A DNA stretch of 64,000 bases from Escarpia spicata (Eukaryota; Annelida; Polychaeta; Sabellida; Siboglinidae), in contig OZ023217.1 of NCBI GenBank assembly GCA_963995525.1, positions 2,696,627 through 2,760,626 of the forward strand, read 5' to 3'. The translations under genes were made by a program, and so were the position numbers. Of this stretch, positions 141 to 61,790 are shown in pieces (positions within the stretch are counted from its first letter, which is position 1; every line of letters starts with the position of its first letter). The notes beneath the pieces are model-generated. The model was not told where the DNA came from. It searched no databases and was given only the letters and a program-made list of their open reading frames with translations.

Positions 141-20287
<20,147 letters not shown>

Positions 20288-31309: not shown

Positions 31310-45890
<14,581 letters not shown>

Positions 45891-46624
45891 GTTCATGTAT
45901 TGTTACATTACAATAGTTGAAAATTATCTTAATAAAAGTCAACACTTCACGCTGGGTGTTAGATGCGATTATCCAGCCGCCGTGAGGTGGCAGCATTGCC
46001 CCGTCACAACGGACTGGAATATTAAAGCTCCAGGTAGGGGGCTTTACCCCAGATTCGAGTAGAGACGATGCTTGGCTCTCAGGCCAACTATGAAGTAACA
46101 AATTCAATAAGGATACACTTTTTTATCAGATAATACTATTCTATAATAATAATACATTTATTCGTACTAAAATTGTACAATTCAACTAAATCAATGCCCT
46201 TGGTGGCCGTGGAAATGTTCTGCCATTATGGCTGTGCCTCTGGCGGCCGTGTACATGTTTTGGCATTCTGGCTGTGTGCCCTTGGTGGCTGTGTAACTGT
46301 TCTGCCATTCTTGGGATACCCTCGGTGGCTTTGTAATTATTTGTTCCGTTGCAATTCCTTAGTTACAGAGGTTGGCATTATTACCCATACGCTTTTATGA
46401 CTATCCTGGTTTTGGTTTTATGGTACAGAACATACTGTTGGTGGCAGTATATATTAATGCAATTACAGTGTGTAACGTTTGTATATTTGTGTTTCGTTCC
46501 TACTTTGGCCTGCTTCCATATTAGCTAGAATGAATTTACCTAGCGGTATGGGTTCATTATAATGTTCATTATAAAAAATATATGACCCAGTGTCTGCCCG
46601 GCTTTCCTTTCTCAATGTTTCAGA
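45891..46624. other. POP5 upstream region and 5' flank of the DIRS-like element
   Basis: Includes four diverged copies of a roughly 43-bp motif (c)ccttggtggccgtg...ttctgccat at about 46196-46345, possibly subterminal repeats of the retroelement. The POP5 promoter should lie near 45900-46100, but no motif is convincing. Confidence 0.45.
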
Positions 46625-46817
46625 ATGCCTCCAAAACGTAAACGTTCTACAAAAGCGCCAGCTCGTTATCGCGAGACAGTCGTGGGACCTCCTCGCAAAC
46701 GAGCCAGGACGGTTGATGGGGACTGGCCCGAGGAAAGGACATCCACAACCATGGCGATGGTTCCACCAGCCCCAGTGTTGTCAGCACCTCCTCCAACTGG
46801 CGAGATTGGTATCCTAC
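46625..46817 (+). pseudogene. DIRS-like gag, N-terminal part
   Basis: ATG 46625 gives a very basic start (MPPKRKRSTKAPARYRETVV), then a Pro/Ala-rich stretch ending TGEIGIL, where the reading frame is broken by an inserted element. The last 7 bases (ATCCTAC) are the target-site duplication. Confidence 0.75.
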
Positions 46818-47870
46818 TGAATTATAGTCGGAATGCACCACTACCTGAATGCACAAAACCTAGTCGCAATGCTCCAACCGCGTAGTCGGAATGCTCCAAC
46901 GGCGTAGTCACAATGCTCCAACGGTCTGGTCGCAATGCACCACTTTTGGTCGGAATGCCCCACTGATTGTAAAATTGCCAAACCTTTGCATACATATAGA
47001 TAATACAATTGTATATATTAAAACTTTAAATATTAAATGCATAATTAATATAGAAATAACATGTTTCGTTGACTTTCTGTACATCCTTAAAAGTAAACTA
47101 TGTTTTGTCTTCGCATACACGTGTATGATTGTATTACATAACCTATAATTAAATATCGATTACATATTGTCCTTTAATGTGTAGAAGTCATGTATTAATA
47201 ACCTAATAGGCATCCGGCTCATGCGTTGAGCAGATCTTTTACGTTGGTTGTTTTGGATGTGTGCCCACACTAATTGGCTAGCTACTCTGGCATTGTTTTA
47301 TTGAGCATGTCGGTTTGTTTGAATAACGGCATTGTACCAAAAAGATTGTACAATGTACATTGAAATAAAGCTTTTGACATCAAAGAAATCTAATTTATGT
47401 TGGTTTGGACAGCGGGTTGAATACGGGGAGGGACTACATATATATACCTTTATTATGTTATGGTTGATATCGTAAATGTATTATATATATATAATACATT
47501 TACGATATCAACCATATTACTATATATGTATATATATATATATATACATACATACATATATAGTAATATACGCAAAGTTGCGTGGGCGATACTTAAAGAA
47601 GTTATTATACTAGCTGACTTGCCCGGCGTTGCCCGTGGAAAAACTAACAAACCAACAAACAAACAGAGAAACCATAATGTTTTATAATATATACTATAGA
47701 TACCATAAGAGGTGCATTGCGCCAAACCATTGGAGCATTGCGACCAGGCGGTTGGGGCATTGCGACCAGGCGTTTGGGGCATTGCGACCACGCGGTTGGA
47801 GCATTGCGACTAGGCAGTTGGTGCATTGCGACTGGTGCATTCAGGCAGAGGTGCATTCCGACCATTACCC
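46818..47870. mobile_element. Foldback/MITE-like DNA element inserted in gag
   Basis: Flanked by the direct repeat ATCCTAC (46811-46817 and 47871-47877). The arms, about 46825-46970 and 47707-47865, are inverted copies built from tandem variants of gtcgcaatgctccaac(c/g)g. The outer ends share GGTCGGAATGCACC / TAGTCGGAATGCACC followed by ctgcctgaatgcac / ctacctgaatgcac. The 740-bp centre is AT-rich and holds a 58-bp perfect palindrome (47459-47516). No transposase is present. Without the insert plus one duplication, the gag frame is continuous. Confidence 0.82.
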
Positions 47871-47877
47871 ATCCTAC

Positions 47878-48818
47878 GTGACCAGATGCGGTCTATGCAG
47901 GAACAGGTGGAATCAATTCGGGAGGCGGTCATGGGGATGGCTGCATCCTCTCAGGTAGCGAAGGAGGCGACCCCAGTGGCAGCGGCATTAGCAACACCAG
48001 CAGCAGCCGGGTCAGCAGCAGCGGCTGGGTCAGCGGCAATGGTCACTGAGTCGAGCATGGGTGAGCTATGTGAGGAATTACCTGAATACCCCTCTAACAT
48101 GAGGGCATTGGCAGCAGTACCGCTTGGTAGCCTGGTGGACCAAAAGATTAAAGACAGAATTTGGTCCAACCAATATATCGATTTGGCTTTACTAATTAGT
48201 GACGCAGCGCATGAAACAACATATATGTCTCCCAATCTCACCTTTGATCAACCTCGGTCGCAGGTCATAAAGAAAATTGCTAACATCGAGCAGTGGTCAG
48301 ATGCTTTTCTCATTTTCATGGCCATATATACACAACACTGCCCATTAGAGACACAGGCTATCATGAAATACATGCAGATCATCCGGACCATGGCTTCCAA
48401 TTCACCCCCCAAGGTTTTTCTTACATATGACAGGGACTTTAGGAAGTTGAGGGCACACTTCACCATGCCGTGGTGTACGTTACATCAGGAACTCCTCCAT
48501 TCGGCTAGCAAGATCATAGGAAATCAGAGTCGTCCCTTTCCCCAGTGGAGACAGCCCATAGCCAGGCGACAGCCCTTTCCCACCGGCTACTGCTTCGCCT
48601 ACTGCAGTGATGGGCGTTGCACCAATCAGAAATGTACCTTCGCACACCGATGCCCATCTTGCAATGGACAGCATGCAGTGTCACAGTGCCATGGTAGTCG
48701 TCCGGCCATCCCATTCAAACGCCCTGCCACCCTCTTCAAACGGCCTGCTTTCACCGGCATCCAACCTCCCAACGCCAATCCACGCCGCCCGGCTATGGCA
48801 GCTCCTACAGGAAAGTAG
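47878..48818 (+). pseudogene. DIRS-like gag, C-terminal part with zinc finger
   Basis: Continues the gag frame from RDQMRSMQEQVESIREAV, through an Ala-rich stretch and the IWSNQYIDLALLIS core, to a Cys/His cluster at about 48590-48705 (CFAYCSDGRCTNQKCTFAHR then CPSCNGQH). This CCCH-type finger is typical of DIRS and related gag proteins, where it binds RNA. Ends TAG at about 48818, overlapping the RT frame. Confidence 0.8.
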
Positions 48819-50088
48819 GTATGAACCAGCCTTGACGGAGGAAATTTGCCAAGGATTTACCCATGGATTTCCACTTTCTTTTCAAGGCGATCTAAGCCAT
48901 AGGACAGTACCATGCAACCACCCATCTCTCCTAGCAAACCTTTCAGTGGCAAGGGACATGATTATGAAAGAATGTACTTTAGGTCGTATTGCAGGCCCCT
49001 TCGAATTAATCCCAATTTTTAACTTGGTTATATCACCATTAGGGCTTATTCCAAAGGCGGAGAAAGGCAAGTTTCGGATAATTCACGACTTATCATTTCC
49101 AAAGGGAAATTCAGTTAATTTTGGAATCCCAAAAGAGTGTTGTTCTGTAACATATGAGGATTATGACTACTTTGTTTCATTGCTGACATCAGTGGGTCGT
49201 GGTTGTTTTATTGCCAAAGCTGATATTGAATCTGCATTTCGGATTATTCCGGTTCATCCTAGAGATTATCATCTGCTTGGTTTTTCATTTGAAGGTCAAT
49301 ATTATTATGATAAATGCCTTCCAATGGGTTGCTCCATTTCGTGCAAAATTTTTGAACAATTTAGCTGTGCCTTGCAGTGGATTCTACAAACAAATTTTCA
49401 CGTTATGCATATGTCTCACATCCTGGACGATTACATTTTTCTCTCGCCATCTCGGTCGATTTGCAACTTCTATCTGCAGCAATTTTTCTTTATGGCTAAT
49501 TGGTTGTCAATTCCGATCAAGCATAACAAAACTGTGTTGCCATCTACTTGTGTGGTTGTTCATGGTATAGAAGTTGACACTGTAAAAATGGAGGCTAGGC
49601 TCCCACAGGACAAACTTGAAGCAGCGAGTAAGTTAGTCAAGTCCTTTAGTCACCGTAAAAAGGTTACCTTGCGAGAACTACAAAGTCTCCTTGGAACTTT
49701 ACAATTCTGTTGTAAAGTAATAATTTCCGGCAGACCATTTCTCCGAAGGTTGCATGACTTAACCCAGGGCAAAGTTAAGCCACATTTTCACATACGCCTG
49801 GATAAGGAGGCACGGCTAGACTTAGCTGCGTGGTCTATTTTTCTGGAGAACTTTAATGGGTCATCACTTCTCATTAATGATCAGTGGCTGTCTTCAGAAA
49901 AGCTTGAATTATTCACAGACGCTTCAGGTCTGGGTTTTGCTGGTCTATTGGAAAGCCAGTGGTTTCAAGGTCATTGGCCTTTGTCATGGCAGAACTTCAA
50001 TATTGCCGTAAAGGAATTATTTCCTATCGTACTTGCCTTGTACTTGTGGCCGCATGTTCTGAAAGATAGGAGACTGCTTGTGCTGTGA
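48607..50088 (+). CDS. DIRS-like reverse transcriptase / RNase H (N-terminal part)
   Basis: Open 493-codon frame. It overlaps the end of gag in another frame, so the true start may be downstream of the listed ATG. RT motifs: GLIPKAEKGKFRIIHDLSFP, FIAKADIESAFRIIPVHP, LPMGCSISCKIFEQFS, and the catalytic box SHILDDYIFLS, with LDD where most RTs have YxDD, as usual in DIRS. RNase H begins at LELFTDASGLGFAGLLE and includes VKELFPIVLAL. The frame ends at TGA 50086-50088, while RNase H continues in another frame. Confidence 0.88.
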   Translation: MMGVAPIRNVPSHTDAHLAMDSMQCHSAMVVVRPSHSNALPPSSNGLLSPASNLPTPIHAARLWQLLQESRYEPALTEEICQGFTHGFPLSFQGDLSHRTVPCNHPSLLANLSVARDMIMKECTLGRIAGPFELIPIFNLVISPLGLIPKAEKGKFRIIHDLSFPKGNSVNFGIPKECCSVTYEDYDYFVSLLTSVGRGCFIAKADIESAFRIIPVHPRDYHLLGFSFEGQYYYDKCLPMGCSISCKIFEQFSCALQWILQTNFHVMHMSHILDDYIFLSPSRSICNFYLQQFFFMANWLSIPIKHNKTVLPSTCVVVHGIEVDTVKMEARLPQDKLEAASKLVKSFSHRKKVTLRELQSLLGTLQFCCKVIISGRPFLRRLHDLTQGKVKPHFHIRLDKEARLDLAAWSIFLENFNGSSLLINDQWLSSEKLELFTDASGLGFAGLLESQWFQGHWPLSWQNFNIAVKELFPIVLALYLWPHVLKDRRLLVL

Positions 50089-50335
50089 CAATGAAGCAGT
50101 GGTACATGTTATCAATAACCAAACGAGTAAAGACAAACAACTGATGTCACTTATCCGTAAGTTGACTGTAGCACTCATGAAAAACAACTTGATTTTAAGA
50201 GCAAAACATGTCCCAGGTAAACAGAATAGAATCGCTGATGCGCTGTCTCGGTTTCAGGACACGCCAGAACTGCGCAGGCAGTATGGCCTCGAGCCAGTGC
50301 CGTCAGTCATCCCGTCGGATCTCCTGCCTTGGTAA
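50078..50335 (+). pseudogene. RNase H C-terminal part, frameshifted
   Basis: Picks up directly as CCDNEAVVHVINNQTSKDKQ and later PGKQNRIADALSRF. CDNEAVV carries an RNase H active-site Asp; ADALSR is the common end motif. The shift relative to the RT frame lies within 50070-50090, either decay or translational frameshifting. Confidence 0.78.
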
Positions 50336-50862
50336 CTGTCGTTCAACACTTGTTAGATGCTTCCTTGTCTGACCTCACCACACAGGCTTATCAAAAAAGT
50401 GTTACAATGTGTCACCAGTTCTGCCAATCTGATCTTCACCTCACACACTGGTTTCCAGCTAAAACACCAGCAATAATTTCTTTTATAGCATTTTGTTTTC
50501 AAAAAGGTTATGCGCCATCATCCATTACCAGTGTGATTTCAGCAATTTCATACGTGCATAAAATGCACACTTTTGCAGATCCAGCTGCTACATTTGTTGT
50601 TCGAAAATTATTGCATGGGGCTGCAAAATTGAGGTCATCAGGTGATCAGCGGGCACCTGTCACAAAATCGGTCATGCACAAGTTGGTTTGTTCTACACCA
50701 CACATCTCATGTTGCTATTATAACAACATTTTAACTTCGGCCATGTATTTACTAGCCTTTCACGCCTTCCTTCGAATAGGGGAAATTGCAGTGACTTCTA
50801 CTGCAAAAATCGGTCAAGTCTTGCAGGTGAGCCAACTGGCAGTGGCGACTAATGGCAGGTGA
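50329..50862 (+). pseudogene. DIRS-like tyrosine recombinase, N-terminal part
   Basis: Core-binding domain (SLSDLTTQAYQKSVTMCHQF, WFPAKTPAIISFIAF), then the catalytic domain up to LLAFHAFLRIGEIAVTS, where the Arg of LRIGE is catalytic residue I. The gene then enters the 32-bp array at 50824 and stops at about 50860. Confidence 0.85.
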
Positions 50863-52999
50863 GCCAGCTGGCAGTGGCGACTAATGGCAGGTGAGCCAGC
50901 TGGCAGTGGCGACTAATGGCAGGTGAGCCAGCTGGCAGTGACGACTAATGGCAGGTGAGCCAACTGGCAGTGACGACTAATGGCAGGTGAGCCAGCTGGC
51001 AGTGGCGACTAATGGCAGGTGAGCCAGCTGGCAGTGGCGACTAATGGCAGGTGAGCCAGCTGGCAGTGACGACTAATGGCAGGTGAGCCAGCTGGCAGTG
51101 ACGACTAATGGCAGGTGAGCCAACTGGCAGTGACGACTAATGGCAGGTGAGCCAGCTGGCAGTGACGACTAATGGCAGGTGAGCCAACTGGCAGTGACGA
51201 CTAATGGCAGGTGAGCCAACTGGCAGTGACGACTAATGGCAGGTGAGCCAGCTGGCAGTGACGACTAATGGCAGGTGAGCCAACTGGCAGTGACGACTAA
51301 TGGCAGGTGAGCCAGCTGGCAGTGACGACTAATGGCAGGTGAGCCAACTGGCAGTGACGACTAATGGCAGGTGAGCCAACTGGCAGTGACGACTAATGGC
51401 AGGTGAGCCAACTGGCAGTGACGACTAATGGCAGGTGAGCCAACTGGCAGTGACGACTAATGGCAGGTGAGCCAACTGGCAGTGACGACTAATGGCAGGT
51501 GAGCCAACTGGCAGTGACGACTAATGGCAGGTGAGCCAACTGGCAGTGACGACTAATGGCAGGTGAGCCAACTGGCAGTGACGACTAATGGCAGGTGAGC
51601 CAACTGGCAGTGACGACTAATGGCAGGTGAGCCAACTGGCAGTGACGACTAATGGCAGGTGAGCCAACTGGCAGTGACGACTAATGGCAGGTGAGCCAAC
51701 TGGCAGTGACGACTAATGGCAGGTGAGCCAGCTGGCAGTGACGACTAATGGCAGGTGAGCCAACTGGCAGTGACGACTAATGGCAGGTGAGCCAACTGGC
51801 AGTGACGACTAATGGCAGGTGAGCCAACTGGCAGTGACGACTAATGGCAGGTGAGCCAACTGGCAGTGACGACTAATGGCAGGTGAGCCAACTGGCAGTG
51901 ACGACTAATGGCAGGTGAGCCAACTGGCAGTGACGACTAATGGCAGGTGAGCCAACTGGCAGTGACGACTAATGGCAGGTGAGCCAACTGGCAGTGACGA
52001 CTAATGGCAGGTGAGCCAACTGGCAGTGACGACTAATGGCAGGTGAGCCAACTGGCAGTGACGACTAATGGCAGGTGAGCCAACTGGCAGTGACGACTAA
52101 TGGCAGGTGAGCCAACTGGCAGTGACGACTAATGGCAGGTGAGCCAGCTGGCAGTGACGACTAATGGCAGGTGAGCCAGCTGGCAGTGACGACTAATGGC
52201 AGGTGAGCCAACTGGCAGTGACGACTAATGGCAGGTGAGCCAACTGGCAGTGACGACTAATGGCAGGTGAGCCAGCTGGCAGTGACGACTAATGGCAGGT
52301 GAGCCAACTGGCAGTGACGACTAATGGCAGGTGAGCCAACTGGCAGTGACGACTAATGGCAGGTGAGCCAACTGGCAGTGACGACTAATGGCAGGTGAGC
52401 CAACTGGCAGTGACGACTAATGGCAGGTGAGCCAGCTGGCAGTGACGACTAATGGCAGGTGAGCCAACTGGCAGTGACGACTAATGGCAGGTGAGCCAAC
52501 TGGCAGTGACGACTAATGGCAGGTGAGCCAACTGGCAGTGACGACTAATGGTAGGTGAGCCAACTGGCAGTGACGACTAATGGCAGGTGAGCCAGCTGGC
52601 AGTGACGACTAATGGCAGGTGAGCCAACTGGCAGTGACGACTAATGGCAGGTGAGCCAGCTGGCAGTGACGACTAATGGCAGGTGAGCCAACTGGCAGTG
52701 ACGACTAATGGCAGGTGAGCCAACTGGCAGTGACGACTAATGGCAGGTGAGCCAACTGGCAGTGACGACTAATGGCAGGTGAGCCAACTGGCAGTGACGA
52801 CTAATGGTAGGTGAGCCAACTGGCAGTGACGACTAATGGCAGGTGAGCCAGCTGGCAGTGACGACTAATGGCAGGTGAGCCAACTGGCAGTGACGACTAA
52901 TGGCAGGTGAGCCAGCTGGCAGTGACGACTAATGGCAGGTGAGCCAGCTGGCAGTGACGACTAATGGCAGGTGAGCCAACTGGCAGTGACGACTAATGG
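50824..52999 (+). repeat. 32-bp tandem array, exactly 68 copies, within the recombinase gene
   Basis: Unit caggtgagccaactggcagt / gacgactaatgg. 2176 bp / 32 = 68 with no indels. The unit is the recombinase codons for QVSQLAV(A/T)TNG. Variants: caactgg/cagctgg, gtgacg/gtggcg, rare ggtagg. The 67 extra copies add 2144 bp (2 mod 3), so the frame is broken. Confidence 0.97.
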
Positions 53000-53412
53000 C
53001 TGTACAGTGGTGTTTTATGCATACAAGCATTATCAAGGCCCGCCTGTGACTTTAGCTATTCCAGCACATATCGAGTCACCATGTTGTCCAGTTAAAGCTA
53101 TGCGATCATATTTGGCATTACGAGGCAATTCGCCAGGTCCGCTCTTTATTTTTCCAGGAGGAGCTCCAGTTACAAAATCGTTCTTTGCTACTCAGCTGAA
53201 AAGGTCTCTTAAATGGGCAGGTCTCTCGACTTTATGCTATAAAGGTCATAGTTTTCGGATAGGCGCTGCAACAGCAGCTGCAATGCAGGGGGTCTCGGAC
53301 GACGAAATCCAGCGCATGGGACGGTGGAAATCCCAAGCTTTTAAAAAATATTCGAATTCCAATGTTGCAGTTGCAGTGACCTCTTTTTGTTTTGCAGTGG
53401 TTATGCTTACAT
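53000..53412 (+). pseudogene. DIRS-like tyrosine recombinase, C-terminal part
   Basis: Resumes as CTVVFYAYKHYQGPPVTLAI and contains GHSFRIGAATAAAMQG (His-x-x-Arg) and QRMGRWKSQAFKKYSN with the nucleophilic Tyr. All catalytic residues of the family are therefore present across the two parts. Ends at TAA about 53412. Confidence 0.85.
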
Positions 53413-53435
53413 AAGGTGGCAGGTGCACAAAGTAT

Positions 53436-54222
53436 GCTTTCTACTTAGGTGGGGCATATGGGGCAGCAATGCTTGTATTCATTAATTTCGAGAAAAAAAA
53501 TGTTGCATGAATTTTTTCTGCTGAGGTGGGGCATTCCATGTAATGTAATCACCATTTCAGCTACACAGTTAATATGTCAACTTAAACCGGTAAATATCAG
53601 TGTTGTGTTACACTCCTGGTAGTGAAATACTCCTTGTTTTGGCTATGTTTCACGGGTGCTTTCTGCTTAGGTGGGGCATTCTGTGTGAAATAGAAATGTT
53701 TTATATACACTCTCGGTGGTTAATATAGACCAATACTGTGTAGCACTTCAGTTACCGAAATGTGTGCATTCCTAATGTGCATTACATTTAGCCTTCACAA
53801 TTGTTGTTTCCAAACCGATGGCTATGTTAATTATACGCATAATGTGTAACGCTTCAGGTACTAAATCATTGTAGGATTAATATGTTGTGGCGCGTGCTTT
53901 CTGCTGAGGTGGGGCATTCCATGTAGCATAATTTTTGTTTACACACATGATGGATATTATATAGCAATAATGTTTAGCACTTAAGGTGCCGGTATATACT
54001 TTCGTGTGGTTTTCATGTATAGCATGAATGCTTTCTGCTTAGGTGAGGCATTCTAAGTGGCAGTAACAGTGTTCGCAGTAACACAGGTTATCTAAGTTCG
54101 TGCTAATTGCCATTGGACACACGTGTGGACTAATGTGTTGTTACATTGGATACCAATGTTTTTACACAAAAGTTCATAGTATTAGTAGGTAACATCCATG
54201 CTTTCTACTGAGGTGGGGCATG
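53436..54222 (+). repeat. Six dispersed copies of a 22-25-bp motif
   Basis: gctttctgct(g/t)aggtggggcattc-like motifs at about 53436, 53511, 53657, 53894, 54029 and 54199, in the same orientation with irregular spacing, downstream of the recombinase. Probably a cis element of the retrotransposon's 3' region. Confidence 0.75.
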
Positions 54223-54355
54223 ATAGGTACTGTTTTGATGAATAGTTGTTACATTCTGAGTGTAATTGCTGTAATTTTGCTTAGTGATACGGAATCCGGT
54301 GGGGTGGGGGAGCCATTCTGAAAATTAGTTATTACAGAATTGGCCTGGTGTGGTC

Positions 54356-54578
54356 GGTTCCCCCACCTTTGCTGTCAGTTTTGTGTATTTGTTATGACAT
54401 GTATAACTAGGTATCGACATTGTATATTATTGTAGTTATGTAATCTAGTTATACATAAAGAGTTGGCTTACTATTAAGCTCTTATACAAACATACATCTG
54501 ACTTGTGTTATCAGCAAACAAGCCACGTTTCCGAGTCACGGAGTCACAACTTTATTTGGTAGTGTTGTCCCGCATAAA
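54356..54578 (+). repeat. 223-bp direct repeat, copy 1
   Basis: From ggttcccccacctttgctgt to gtgttgtcccgcataaa. Differs from copy 2 at about one base (gtttccgag vs gttttcgag). Confidence 0.93.
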
Positions 54579-55128
54579 AACACCTTTTGAATGAAATTCA
54601 AACGGCATTTATGTGGGCAACAAAACCAATGCTTCTATTCTGGAATATACGGTAAGCTCAAAAAATTATGAGGCTGACAGAAACATGAGACTAGTTCTCC
54701 AATCCCAGCCTCTCTCTCGAAATTTCCAGAATTGAAAAGGTATATTCGCTCTCGATTTTTGAAGTTTGTTTTCCCACCCTCCTACCCCATCCACACCTGA
54801 GTATTTATATGGCTGGTGGTGTTTTTTTACTTATTTGTGTGTTTCTGCATGCAATTTTAAATACACGGTTTATATTAAGTTACAGTGTATGCATAATTGT
54901 GTTCTGTGCCATCATATCTCTTGCAACTATAGCCATGCAGTCTGTAGCATAGTTTGTCTTACGAGATTCTGGCTAATGATAATAGTACACTGTGTGTATG
55001 ATACATCTTCCAAAGGGTTTTAGGGCGGGGACAGGTGCACATGTACCTAACGCTTTCCCCTTGTTTTTGAATCACAGAATTTCACACATGTAAGTAAGAT
55101 GGTGGGTTTCCTCCACCTGCGTGTGGTT
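54579..55128 (+). other. 550-bp spacer between the 223-bp direct repeats
   Basis: Candidate A2 segment of a split-direct-repeat retroelement end. I could not see a matching A1 upstream of gag by eye. Confidence 0.4.
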
Positions 55129-55351
55129 GGTTCCCCCACCTTTGCTGTCAGTTTTGTGTATTTGTTATGACATGTATAACTAGGTATCGACATTGTATAT
55201 TATTGTAGTTATGTAATCTAGTTATACATAAAGAGTTGGCTTACTATTAAGCTCTTATACAAACATACATCTGACTTGTGTTATCAGCAAACAAGCCACG
55301 TTTTCGAGTCACGGAGTCACAACTTTATTTGGTAGTGTTGTCCCGCATAAA
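55129..55351 (+). repeat. 223-bp direct repeat, copy 2
   Basis: Second copy; its end abuts the 3' end of the minus-strand LINE at 55352. Confidence 0.93.
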
Positions 55352-57269
55352 TGTATATAAGTTACTGTGTACATAAAACAGTAAGCAATGAGCGCAGCTC
55401 GTCAATGGCTAAAAAAGAAGAGCTACCCATATTATTTATATTATGTAATACATCTTTTGCAAATGAGACTCTACATACTAGTTCATCATCCAGCCCCTCC
55501 TGGTAGTGGTCTTGAATCATACCATAAAACTGATTAGACTTCATTCGAAAGAATGTCATGGCATCAAGTTTGAATTTGGACATGATATAGTTAAAACTTT
55601 TAGACATATATGACCCACTACCTTGAAAGGCTAGATGAGAGAGCATTTTCAAACTGGAGTTACTGCATTTCAAGCAACTCTGCATAAATCGTACCATTCG
55701 ATTAATAATTTGAATTTGAATCGGTAAACAGTCTGCTAAAAGTGGCACCATATTACAATGCGTGCAAACTGGTAGATTAAACAGTTTTCTGATACCTTTG
55801 CGCCACGTAGTATAAAACATATCAAGATGTTTGTTTTGCAAGTTCCACAGACATACACCATAGAAAGATGTACAGTACGACATATATAATTGACGTTTTA
55901 TGTTTATATTACAAAACCCAAAATTAGCAGATAATGCATTTACACGCCATATAAAATCATGACACATATCTTTTACCATAGCCTGGTGAGCGTCAGGACC
56001 AATAACGTGGCCTAAATGCAACCCTTTTTTACTATGTTTCACTTTTAAACCATCAAAGTAAAATGGGCAGTCGGTACCACTGCCATATTTAATAAGTTGA
56101 CATTTTGCCGGGTTGAATTGTAAATCATATTCATATGCAAATTTTAGACATATATCACACATTTTTTTCAATGCATATATCGATGGAGCTACCAAAGATA
56201 TATCATCAGCATAGCCAACAGCACCATAGTACTTATGACCGATCATACAGCCAAAACCAGACATGCAGAGTCTTGTTAACATTTCATCAATGTAGATAGA
56301 AAATAAAATGGGGGACAACACCCCACCCTGCTTCACACCATTGGCAGTGGAGAAATGCAATGACATGGAATTGTTCCATGATACATTTAAATGTTGATTA
56401 GTGTACATATAAAGTAAACATCTGATTAAAAGGGGATTCATTCCTCTATCCATCAGTAAGTTAAAAAGTTTAACATAATTTACTTTATCGAATGCTTTAG
56501 TCGCATCTAGTAATAACACGTAAACATCCGATTTATTCTGCTGGAAATAGTTCACAGTCTCCATTAACGCAAAAGTACATTTAGCTGTAGAGCTTTGAGG
56601 TTTGAAACCAAACTGTAGATCACGTGTTTTAAGAGCATCAGAACTTTTTATCATTATAACCCAATCAAATATTTTCGACAGAGGGCTACTAAGAGCAATG
56701 GCTCGATAGTTGTCAGAATTATTTGCTGATTTCCTCTTGTTTTTTACCAGAGGTTGAATTGTTGATATATTAAAACCATCCGGGGTATATCCGTGATATA
56801 CCATTGCTGTGAATAGCAAAGAAAGAAAAACATGTAATTTGGTAGGTGCATGAATAAAGTGGTCGGTATATATAACGCCGTATCCATCACATTTGTTAAT
56901 CTTAACATGATTAATGCCATTCAAAACATCATGCACCGTAATAGTATTTTCACCTTCGTTACAATGTGCATCTACTTTACTATGTATGTTTTGTAGCAAT
57001 GACGTCATGTCTGCAACATTATAGGCTACTAAATTATATAAGTCCTCATACTTAGTAGCAAAGTGTTTAGACATATTTTCGTCTCCTGTCACTTCATCAA
57101 CCATGTTGGGTAGCATATTATTGTTCTTTGTAACTTTACCTACTTCTTTCCAGAAGTCCCTACTTTTATTTCCAAGTAACGCTGTCGCCATACTTTCTTT
57201 TTTAACATTATTTTGATTACGTTTAACAAAACGAACTGCTCTGTGATATTGAGAGCGTGATCTACGCAT
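55352..57269 (-). mobile_element. 5'-truncated LINE with intact reverse transcriptase ORF (635 codons)
   Basis: Minus ORF 57269-55362 has no internal stop. RT blocks in order: DNYRAIALSSPLSKIFDWVI, LLLDATKAFDKVNYVKLF, NGVKQGGVLSPILFSIYIDE, VGYADDISLVAPS (catalytic YADD), then thumb and a long C-terminal domain with HLGHVIG. There is no endonuclease domain upstream in this copy, so it is 5'-truncated at about 57270. It belongs to the non-LTR (Jockey/CR1-like) RTs; clade not resolved. The lack of stops suggests recent insertion. Confidence 0.88.
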
Positions 57270-57324
57270 GACGTCTTTGACGTCTATAATAACTGGTTGG
57301 TTGGGGTTTGCTTATCCATTTCCG

Positions 57325-57540
57325 GACGTTGCTACCTTGATGAATTGTCTATACAGCTCTTTCGTTTGCCAGTCTCCCCACTCGCCAGACGTCTGCTCCC
57401 ATCCATTCCTCTATGTCCTTCCCCCATTGTCTCCTAGGTCTTCCTCTGCTTCTGCTGCATTCCACTTTTACTTCCATTATTAGTCTCTCTATAGAGACTG
57501 ATGCCGTTTCACATGGCCGAAATAACTTAGTTTCTGTTTC
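57325..57540 (-). pseudogene. LINE C-terminal fragment
   Basis: The minus strand reads LSYFGHVKRHQSL, then (one stop) MEVKVECSRSRGRPRRQW and DIEEWMGADVWRV, the tail typical of non-LTR retrotransposon polyproteins. It is a different element from the one at 55352-57269, and defective. Confidence 0.7.
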
Positions 57541-59034: not shown

Positions 59035-59756
59035 GGGTATAAATGTGTTTGTTTAAATGCAAGGAGTATAGTAAACAAAAGAAATGAACTAAACATTATG
59101 GTAGAAGATATTGACCCTCACATAATAGGTATAACCGAATCATGGGCAACCACCGATATATCAGATGCCGAATTGGGACTGACAGGATATGTAATGTTTA
59201 GGAAAGATAGAATAGGAAGAAGGGGAGGTGGAGTTATTTTATATATTAAAGAATCTATCCAGGCTTATGAAATAAAATTAGACCTGCAGAGAAGCAGATT
59301 GCGAAGAAGCTGTTTGGTGTAACATAGTTACAGGAAACTCAACGTTAACGGTTGGATTAGTTTATCGAAGTCCAAACATAAGCATAGAAGCATAGAAGAG
59401 AATGAAAAAATACAAAACGCTATAAGGGAAGTGAGCAAACGGGACTGTGTTATTATGGGGGATTTTAACCATGGGCATATAAAATGGAAATCTCTACAGA
59501 GTATGGGTAGTGAGGACCACAAGTTTTTAGTTTTAGTACAAGATAGTTTCCTTTCTCAACATGTGCTAGAACCAACCAGGGGAGAGAATGTGTTAGACTT
59601 AGTTTTGTCCTCACAGAATGAATTATTTGACAATGTTAAATTATGTGAGCCTCTGGGAAGTAGTGATCACAACCAGATACATTTAACCATCAAAATAAAA
59701 TCAGAAAGAAATAATAAAAAAACAGTTCAGGAGAAATTTCCACAAAGGAAGATATA
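59035..59756 (+). pseudogene. LINE endonuclease domain
   Basis: Apurinic-type endonuclease motifs: VCLNARSIVNKRNELNIM, IIGITESW (catalytic Glu region), RRGGGVILYIKES, MGDFNHGHIKW, and SSDHNQI (catalytic Asp-His). A frameshift near 59315 splits it in two. Confidence 0.85.
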
Positions 59757-59953
59757 AGGAAATGAGGAAATATTTAGCAAAGATAGACTGGAATAACACA
59801 CTGAAGAATAAGACAGCAACAGAATGCTGAAATATCTTAAAGAATGAAATAGAGTGCATCGTAGATAAATTTGTTCCCTTCAAAAAACAAGGGAAACGGA
59901 CCAGAAAGAAATACTTATCGAAAGAAGCCATTAGAAAAATTAAGTATAAACAA

Positions 59954-61790
59954 ATGATGTGGAAGTCATATAGACGTACTGGAAATGACGAAGACTACAA
60001 CATTTATAAAGAAGCACTAAACCAAGCTACAGCTGAAATTAGAAATTCAAAGAGAAACTATGAACATAAATTAGCTTGTAATATAAAACATGACAGCAAG
60101 AGTTTTTATGCGTATGTTCGAAGCAAACAGAAAGTTCAGGATAAGGTCGGTCCTCTAGAAGATAGTGCTGAAAATATAATATCAGAAGGATTTTTAATGG
60201 CAGAAGACCTGAATGAGTATTTTAGTTCAGTGTTTACCAGAGAAGACACTAGTTCACTGCCAGTACCAGAGGCTAAGTTCAAGGGGGCAGAATCAGAATA
60301 TTTAAGACAGTTAATTGTAACCCAAGAAATGGTAGCTAAGAAAATTGGGGCTATGAAGGATAATAAATCACCTGGAGTGGATGGGATTCCGCCCAAACTA
60401 CTATTGGAAATTGTAGAAAAAATTAGCATACCGCTTGCAACAGTTTTCACCTTGTCATTACAAGAGGGAGTGGTTCCTTTAGAATGGAAAGAAGCAAACA
60501 TTATACCGTTATTTAAAAAAGGTTCGAGAAACAAGTCAAATAATTATAGACCAGTTAGTTTAACATCGGTGATTTGTAAATTATTAGAAAGACTAATTAA
60601 AGATCACATGGTGGATTTTCTTGTTAAACATAACTTGATAAACCCATCTCAACATGGGTTTCTAAGTGAGGTCATGCTTAACAAATATGTTATGTTTTTT
60701 GGAAGATATCACTAAGTGGATAGATGATGGATCACCAGTAGATATCATCTACTTAGATTTTCAAAAAGCTTTCGACAAAGTGCCACATCAAAGATTACTG
60801 CTTAAACTAAAGGCCCATGGCATAGGAATTGGTATAATTAACTGGATTGAAAAATGGCTGATTGACAGAAGACAACGGGTGGTTGTTAATGGGGAGGCTT
60901 CAAACTGGAAATCAGTTTTGAATGGGGTTCCACAGGGATCAGTACTGGGACCTATATTATTCTTAATATATATACAAACGATTTGAACGATGATATAGCT
61001 AGCAGAGTGTTGAAATTTGCAGATGATACAAAATTTTTTAGAAGGATTAAAAGTGATGGAGATAGACAGCATTTACAAGATGATCTTGACAGGTTGATCA
61101 AATGGTCTGAAAAGTGGCAAATGTTGTTCAATTTTGGGAAATGTAAATGCCTTCACACAGGACATGGGAACGAATATGTGGAATATACAATGGGGGGGAA
61201 CTGTACTAAGTACTACTGTAAAAAAAAAAAAATTAGGGTTGACAATTAGTGCTGACATGAAGGTTTCAGAGCAAATGTGGAATTGCAGCTTCAAAAGGAA
61301 ATCTAATCCTTGGATTGATTAGGCGAAATATAGCATATAAAGAAAAAATAATACCGTTGTACAAAACAATAGTTAGGCCTCATGTAGAATATTGTATACA
61401 AGCGTGGAGGCCATACCGCAAGAAGGACATAGATATGCTAGAAAGAGTACAGAGGAGAGCGACTAAAATGATACCAAAACTGAGGGATCTTAGTTATGAA
61501 AAACGCCTAAAAGAATGTGGTTTAACAACACTAGAGACCAGGAGATTGAGAGGAGATCAGATAGAAGTGTTTAAAATATTGAATGGTTATGAAAATATTT
61601 ATAGAAATATGTTTTTTTCAGTTAAGAAAGACTAGAGGACATGAAGTTACATTAATAAAGGAGCTGTGTAGATTAGAGGTAAGAAAGTTCTCATTTTCAC
61701 AAAGGACTGTGAATGAATGGAACAGGTTATCTGATGATTGTGTGGGTGATAGTAGTGTGAATATGTTTTAAAATAAATATTTGGCTGGAT
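59954..61790 (+). pseudogene. LINE reverse transcriptase and C-terminal region
   Basis: Blocks: NKSPGVDGIPPKLL, NNYRPVSLTSVICKLLERLI, IYLDFQKAFDKVPHQRLL, NGVPQGSVLGPILFLIYI, LKFADDTKFF (catalytic FADD). Then PLYKTIVRPHVEYCIQAWRP, MLERVQRRATKMIP and RRLRGDQIEVFKILNGYEN, typical of CR1-like elements. Frame changes occur near 60690, 60975, 61225-61310 and 61600. Not functional. Confidence 0.87.

Follow-up and report, generated by a model that had tools for sequence, protein, structure and literature searches.

Within the tyrosine recombinase (YR) gene of a DIRS-type retrotransposon, 68 copies of a 32-bp piece of that same gene stand head to tail, which raises the question of how the array arose, what it did to the gene, and whether it serves any function. 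We analysed a 64,000-bp stretch of Escarpia spicata DNA (the window) that holds the array together with both parts of the interrupted gene. The array itself, the one-unit state of the gene in relatives, the broken reading frame and a second sequence with the same duplication junction are established by observation, and the growth process of the array and its lack of function are what we infer. We consider it very probable that a minisatellite was born here by tandem duplication of a 32-bp piece in the YR exon, most likely neutral and without function.

Results

The host element

The coding parts of the element lie on the + strand. Reverse transcriptase (RT) and the first part of RNase H occupy 48562..50088 (PF00078, E 1.1e-09; 1629 homologs at E<=1e-3 of 7999 scored candidates), and the remainder of RNase H (50063..50335) is in a frame that differs from that of the RT ORF, according to the ORFs, Pfam and comparison with the relative P0026; PF00078 and PF13456 (RVT_3) both score over their cut-offs. 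Among the matches listed, the RT relatives that have names are more distant (47-49% identity) and comprise, among others, proteins of scallop and oyster. The YR follows 3' of the RNase H in two parts, each recognised as an ORF. The left part (50239..50862) carries a SAM-like N-terminal domain (PF02899, Phage_int_SAM_1, E 8.2e-06; also supported by homologs) and a FLRIGE motif, which we take to be the site of the first catalytic Arg; the right part (52965..53414) carries the catalytic domain with HSFR and KKY motifs, based on the alignment and on a match to PF00589 (Phage_integrase, E 3.6e-05) that, at 24.1 bits, lies under the model's cut-off of 27.1. Relatives carry both halves in one ORF. 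A profile of the YR alignment matches chains of Cre, the best with E 1.6e-07, although the match covers only profile positions 9-133 of 276, and the window YR is a retrotransposon enzyme.

Upstream, an ORF with its Met at 46625 (46625..48818, + strand) is split by an insertion; it is labelled gag-like on account of its position, as no Pfam gag model matched in the part scanned. The insertion (46824..47865) carries inverted ends of 31 bp (90% complementary), and a 22-bp repeat forms inverted arrays at either end, with 86% complementarity across 84 bp. Past the YR ORF, six dispersed + strand copies of TTTCTGCTTAGGTGGGGCATTC (53438..54223; 0-4 mismatches), 22-24 bp each and 77-238 bp apart, may be a conserved piece of the family's 3' region; the C-terminus of one YR relative, P0012, encodes by eye a similar stretch (FYLGGTS).

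Elements of the DIRS order are typified by inverted ends with an internal complementary region, or by split direct repeats. None of the 13 inverted pairs of at least 22 bp in 43000-57500 links the two ends of the element. A 236-bp direct repeat (98.7%) is present at 54344-54578 and 55116-55351, 772 bp start to start, and the stretch between its copies has no upstream partner beyond a single 15-bp match; it may be the element's own split direct repeats, or else belong to a small insertion of separate origin. It lies beyond the YR ORF and adjoins a minus-strand RT ORF (55362-57311). DIRS proper is marked, relative to Ngaro or PAT, by a methyltransferase or hydrolase domain, and neither appeared among the Pfam matches of the six ORFs scanned in this damaged copy. 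Beyond the array, the lesions comprise the interrupted gag-like ORF, the shifted RT-RNase H frame and a shifted YR C-terminus, which past KKY diverges, as by frameshift, from 10 of the 11 aligned relatives; the exception, P0004, is itself shifted. The window copy is dead for several reasons.

A 68-unit minisatellite in a minisatellite-rich region

Counting units directly, we found that 68 uninterrupted copies of exactly 32 bp, with majority unit CAGGTGAGCCAACTGGCAGTGACGACTAATGG, fill 50824..52999 (+ strand) within the YR exon. Tandem Repeats Finder (TRF) independently reported 50823-53000, with period 32, 68.1 copies, 98% matches and 0% indels, so that the perfect-length copies described in the earlier note are confirmed by both methods. 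With units of 10-100 bp arranged head to tail, the array falls within the definition of a minisatellite. Departures from the majority unit amount to 27 in 2176 bp and are confined to three columns of the unit: column 1 (C in 66 units, T in 2), column 12 (A in 48, G in 20) and column 22 (A in 63, G in 5). These define five unit types, A to E, with 45, 16, 4, 2 and 1 members, respectively. We also compared the unit with the Jeffreys-type minisatellite core, GGGCAGGTGG, and rejected a kinship: the match of 8/10 is at chance level, since 15 of 400 shuffles reached it and it was the best among 15 arrays tested.

A view of the array as something singular is not supported, given that 14 other minisatellites occur in the window. 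Altogether, 19 tandem arrays take up 29,035 of its 64,000 bp (45%). Minisatellites with units of at least 24 bp number 15, including the 32-bp array and omitting one CA-rich array, and cover 26,143 bp, which makes the 32-bp array one product of a local habit. The other fourteen lie in 234-42205, with units of 24-91 bp and up to 98 copies, and some have long frames that stay open through the array (for instance 7030-9606, + strand, 858 codons; 7044-9578, minus strand, 844 codons). Elsewhere in the window (59323-60715), the + strand has two ORFs in separate frames, of which the first matches the endonuclease domain of an endonuclease-RT and the second, under the cut-off, an RT start; they are probably remains of a further broken element of the non-LTR type.

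The array closes the recombinase frame

The unit consists of in-frame YR codons, encoding the peptide QVSQLAV[A/T]TNG, and stands after FLRIGE and before the KHY, HSFR and KKY motifs in the alignment. Its assignment to a DIRS tyrosine recombinase agrees with Phage_int_SAM_1 on the left and, below its own cut-off, Phage_integrase on the right. As the earlier note had read from the two ORFs, the left one runs into the array in frame (...GQVLQVSQLAVATNGR, then stop) and the right one leaves it with the same peptide (QVSQLAVTTNGCTVVFYAYKHY...). Read through from the left piece, translation halts after QVSQLAVATNGR, at a stop 12 codons inside the array, and the 67 extra units displace the right frame from the left one by 67 x 32 = 2144 bp, or 2 mod 3; the enzyme is therefore broken, as claimed. 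Stops occur in all + strand frames of the array, none of which stays open for more than 17 codons. Because a single added unit already shifts the frame and gives an immediate stop, the gene was closed by the first extra copy, and the length that the array subsequently reached is of little consequence to it.

Relatives carry a single unit

In all 11 aligned relatives, the left and right YR pieces join at one unit, without gaps at that point. The two YR searches together gave 82 relatives; 54 of them extend across the unit site, none with an added unit, a count that leaves out the 28 non-spanning ones and is biased accordingly, since array-bearing relatives would show as truncated ORFs and thus fall among those 28. 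At the site, 28 of the spanning relatives match the length of P0005 and 14 are off by more than 4 residues (-11 to +7), and none of the length differences in the 54 is a repeat of the unit peptide. The origin of the minisatellite from coding sequence with a one-unit ancestor, also proposed in the earlier note, is upheld by these comparisons. No single-unit YR of more than 77% identity appeared among the matches listed, whereas an RT of 99% identity did. In IMG/VR, a pattern for the right YR piece matched 16 stretches with no true relative among them, and a 21-bp unit pattern matched none; in a prokaryote genome collection the latter gave two single matches, both to bacterial MAGs (L001, L002), which we attribute to chance. 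The predicted structure of P0005 is poor (mean pLDDT 44.9), with a strand at residues 141-146, the position of the unit peptide, and it supports no claim. Another YR relative in the database, P0190, has an N-terminal half made of a repeated peptide (GRQALYGAAKLYMGPPSSIW-like) and looks like a further tandem array fused to part of a YR.

Two close relatives were compared with the window residue by residue. P0145, a separately deposited sequence on a 2467-bp contig with the source label 'lgn' (presumably Logan), is 97% identical to the left YR piece, and its C-terminal end, ...QVLQVSQLAVATNGR (…VATNGR), is the duplication junction, the sole such end among the 82 YR relatives. Hence, the duplication is not limited to this assembly. 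P0145 and the window are not one sequence, as they differ at 4 of 176 residues (a fifth, L versus M at residue 4, reflects how the start codon is read and was not counted). Because both have the junction and, in unit 1, the Ala codon, the duplication together with that codon is older than their split. Compared with 24 relatives, the state of P0145 at the four differences is the only one at two positions (18/18, 24/24), the commonest at one (12/19) and tied commonest at one (3/8); none of the window's private amino-acid changes occurs in P0145, despite the shared junction and codon. The two may be alleles, orthologues or separate copies. P0026, the RT-RNase H relative (99%; contig of 2955 bp), is unbroken at the site of the window's frameshift and differs from the window at 3 of 374 residues, one clearly derived in the window and two ambiguous, as judged against 13 further RT relatives from the 120 listed of 1629.

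Growth of the array

The ends of the single-copy unit overlap at the junction by 1+1 bp (GC), an overlap that points to break repair with microhomology or to slippage and proves neither. The variants are placed non-randomly along the array: all five units with G in column 22 are within units 1-7 (0/5000 shuffles), and there is a 25-unit stretch with a single non-A unit (2/5000 shuffles). Non-A units number 11 in units 1-16, one in 17-41 and 11 in 42-68, with limits picked after viewing the data, a distribution that fits a homogenised centre and divergent ends. The residue set by column 22, Ala in unit 1, is Thr in 8, Asn in 2 and Ser in 1 of the 11 aligned relatives; G22 in units 1, 2, 3, 6 and 7 is therefore derived, and the left-end units are not ancestral. 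Two further patterns are not claimed: higher-order blocks, suggestive only, as 31 of 500 shuffles equalled the most informative one (AAADBAB), and likeness between adjacent units, which was reached by 245 of 2000. The idea that the array preserves a record of its growth thus stands as regards variant placement, but not as regards the left end, where the variant is derived, or block structure.

Folding of four units was compared with shuffles, giving z -4.18 on the + strand (0/200) and z -0.85 on the minus strand (40/200); the modelled + strand fold would favour slippage. We propose that a 32-bp piece of the YR exon was duplicated in tandem before the window sequence and P0145 diverged, that slippage or unequal exchange of whole units then expanded it to 68 copies, and that the middle was homogenised, with most variants left at the ends.

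Splice-site-like sequence in the unit

The motif CAGGTGAGC (CAG/GTGAGC, the slash marking the predicted donor boundary) is present in 66 of the 68 units and the remaining two have TAGGTGAGC; the splice site that the earlier note attributed to every unit is real as sequence, matching 8 of 9 consensus positions, but is two units short of the claimed count. Outside the arrays, such donors occur 12 times on the + strand in 34,965 bp. Since the junctions read TAATGGCAG/GTGAGC, a single AGGT gives both the acceptor AG and the donor GT, both from the duplicated segment. The pyrimidine content of the array acceptor is 0.38, which is the 29th percentile of yAG sites outside arrays, and other AGs are nearby.

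Discussion

It is possible, though we doubt it, that the array-bearing form is a non-autonomous subfamily copied in trans by the enzyme of intact copies, which would be compatible with our best explanation. P0145 and the window have the junction and the unit 1 Ala codon in common while differing at 4 residues, and an intact RT-RNase H exists in P0026; conversely, P0145 may be an allele, or a sister-species orthologue at the same locus, and the matches listed include no intact family YR with more than 77% identity. That the array is an assembly artefact, in whole or in length, seems hardly credible: the unit number comes from the assembly, so the length may still be off, but the separately deposited P0145 ends at the same junction, which shows that a second unit at least begins there, and variant units are unevenly spread.

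Far-reaching but very unlikely is that the array is a newborn spliceosomal intron, in which splicing would join the unit 1 donor to the unit 68 acceptor, so that a single unit remains and the frame stays open across the site. As every junction regenerates a donor, recursive splicing could reduce an array of whatever length to a single unit, and the element could thereby keep a working recombinase despite a 2-kb array; that a still-living retrotransposon lineage carries a minisatellite intron of this sort is a long shot. The near-consensus donor, rare outside arrays, speaks for it, as does the missing single-unit YR above 77% identity beside a listed 99% RT. P0145, with the junction yet no private changes, could indicate that the array-bearing lineage is still under constraint, an argument from a small sample (4 versus 0) and from ORF collections, which enrich for intact sequences; moreover, P0145 possibly derives from DNA or unspliced RNA. 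Precedents are fission-yeast introns that arose from 24-nt tandem repeats (PMC3629103) and the AGGT duplication model (PMC4974935). Against it, the array acceptor is weak and has competing AGs, and stronger acceptor-like sites in the right flank (53158, 53398) would either way remove YR codons, 53158 being by coordinates also out of frame with the left YR part. An open product is obtained from the 1-to-68 splice only, the window copy bears other lesions, and donor-like sites also occur in 2 of the 14 other arrays, both on the minus strand.

Comparable systems are known. Retrotransposon-derived repeats and satellites of Lathyrus sativus similarly involve short expanding tandem arrays inside retrotransposons (PMC7004042), although those are in LTR-retrotransposons, whereas here the unit comes from a YR-retrotransposon exon with both gene parts attached. 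The 'mirage' minisatellites of amphioxus (PMC3087553) are likewise in a gene, have many units with AG/GT signals and are homogenised except at cluster boundaries, but span existing host intron-exon boundaries; here there are 68 units and no known intron. In two BflGb6 haplotypes the mirage units number 6 and 3, and amphioxus minisatellites with AG/GT signals seemingly leave regular splicing undisturbed (PMC3087553). Intron gain by tandem duplication (PMC4974935, PMC3629103) also involves a duplicated exonic segment with a proto-splice site, given for fission yeast as AGGC (PMC3629103) or AGGT (PMC4974935); the fission-yeast cases are two, one of them termed unsettled by its authors, with few 24-nt units (PMC3629103), in contrast to 68 units with splicing only predicted. 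Our literature search found no paper on a minisatellite with AGGT spliced as a tandem intron, which is not proof that the phenomenon is unpublished, and a search by title found none on a DIRS tyrosine recombinase with a minisatellite.

The birth of a minisatellite from retrotransposon coding sequence is real, cleanly legible and of a kind already known. Its legibility is unusual in that the coding ancestor is known from relatives and both gene halves are present, and a second sequence, P0145, dates the duplication to before its divergence from the window. Under the ordinary reading, the locus is just a further instance of a tandem array seeded by a transposon, in a region rich in minisatellites. 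Were the intron reading true, the recombinase would survive a 2-kb array otherwise fatal to its gene. With its 68 units, the locus also offers a place where RNA reads alone could test the AGGT duplication model of how introns are born.
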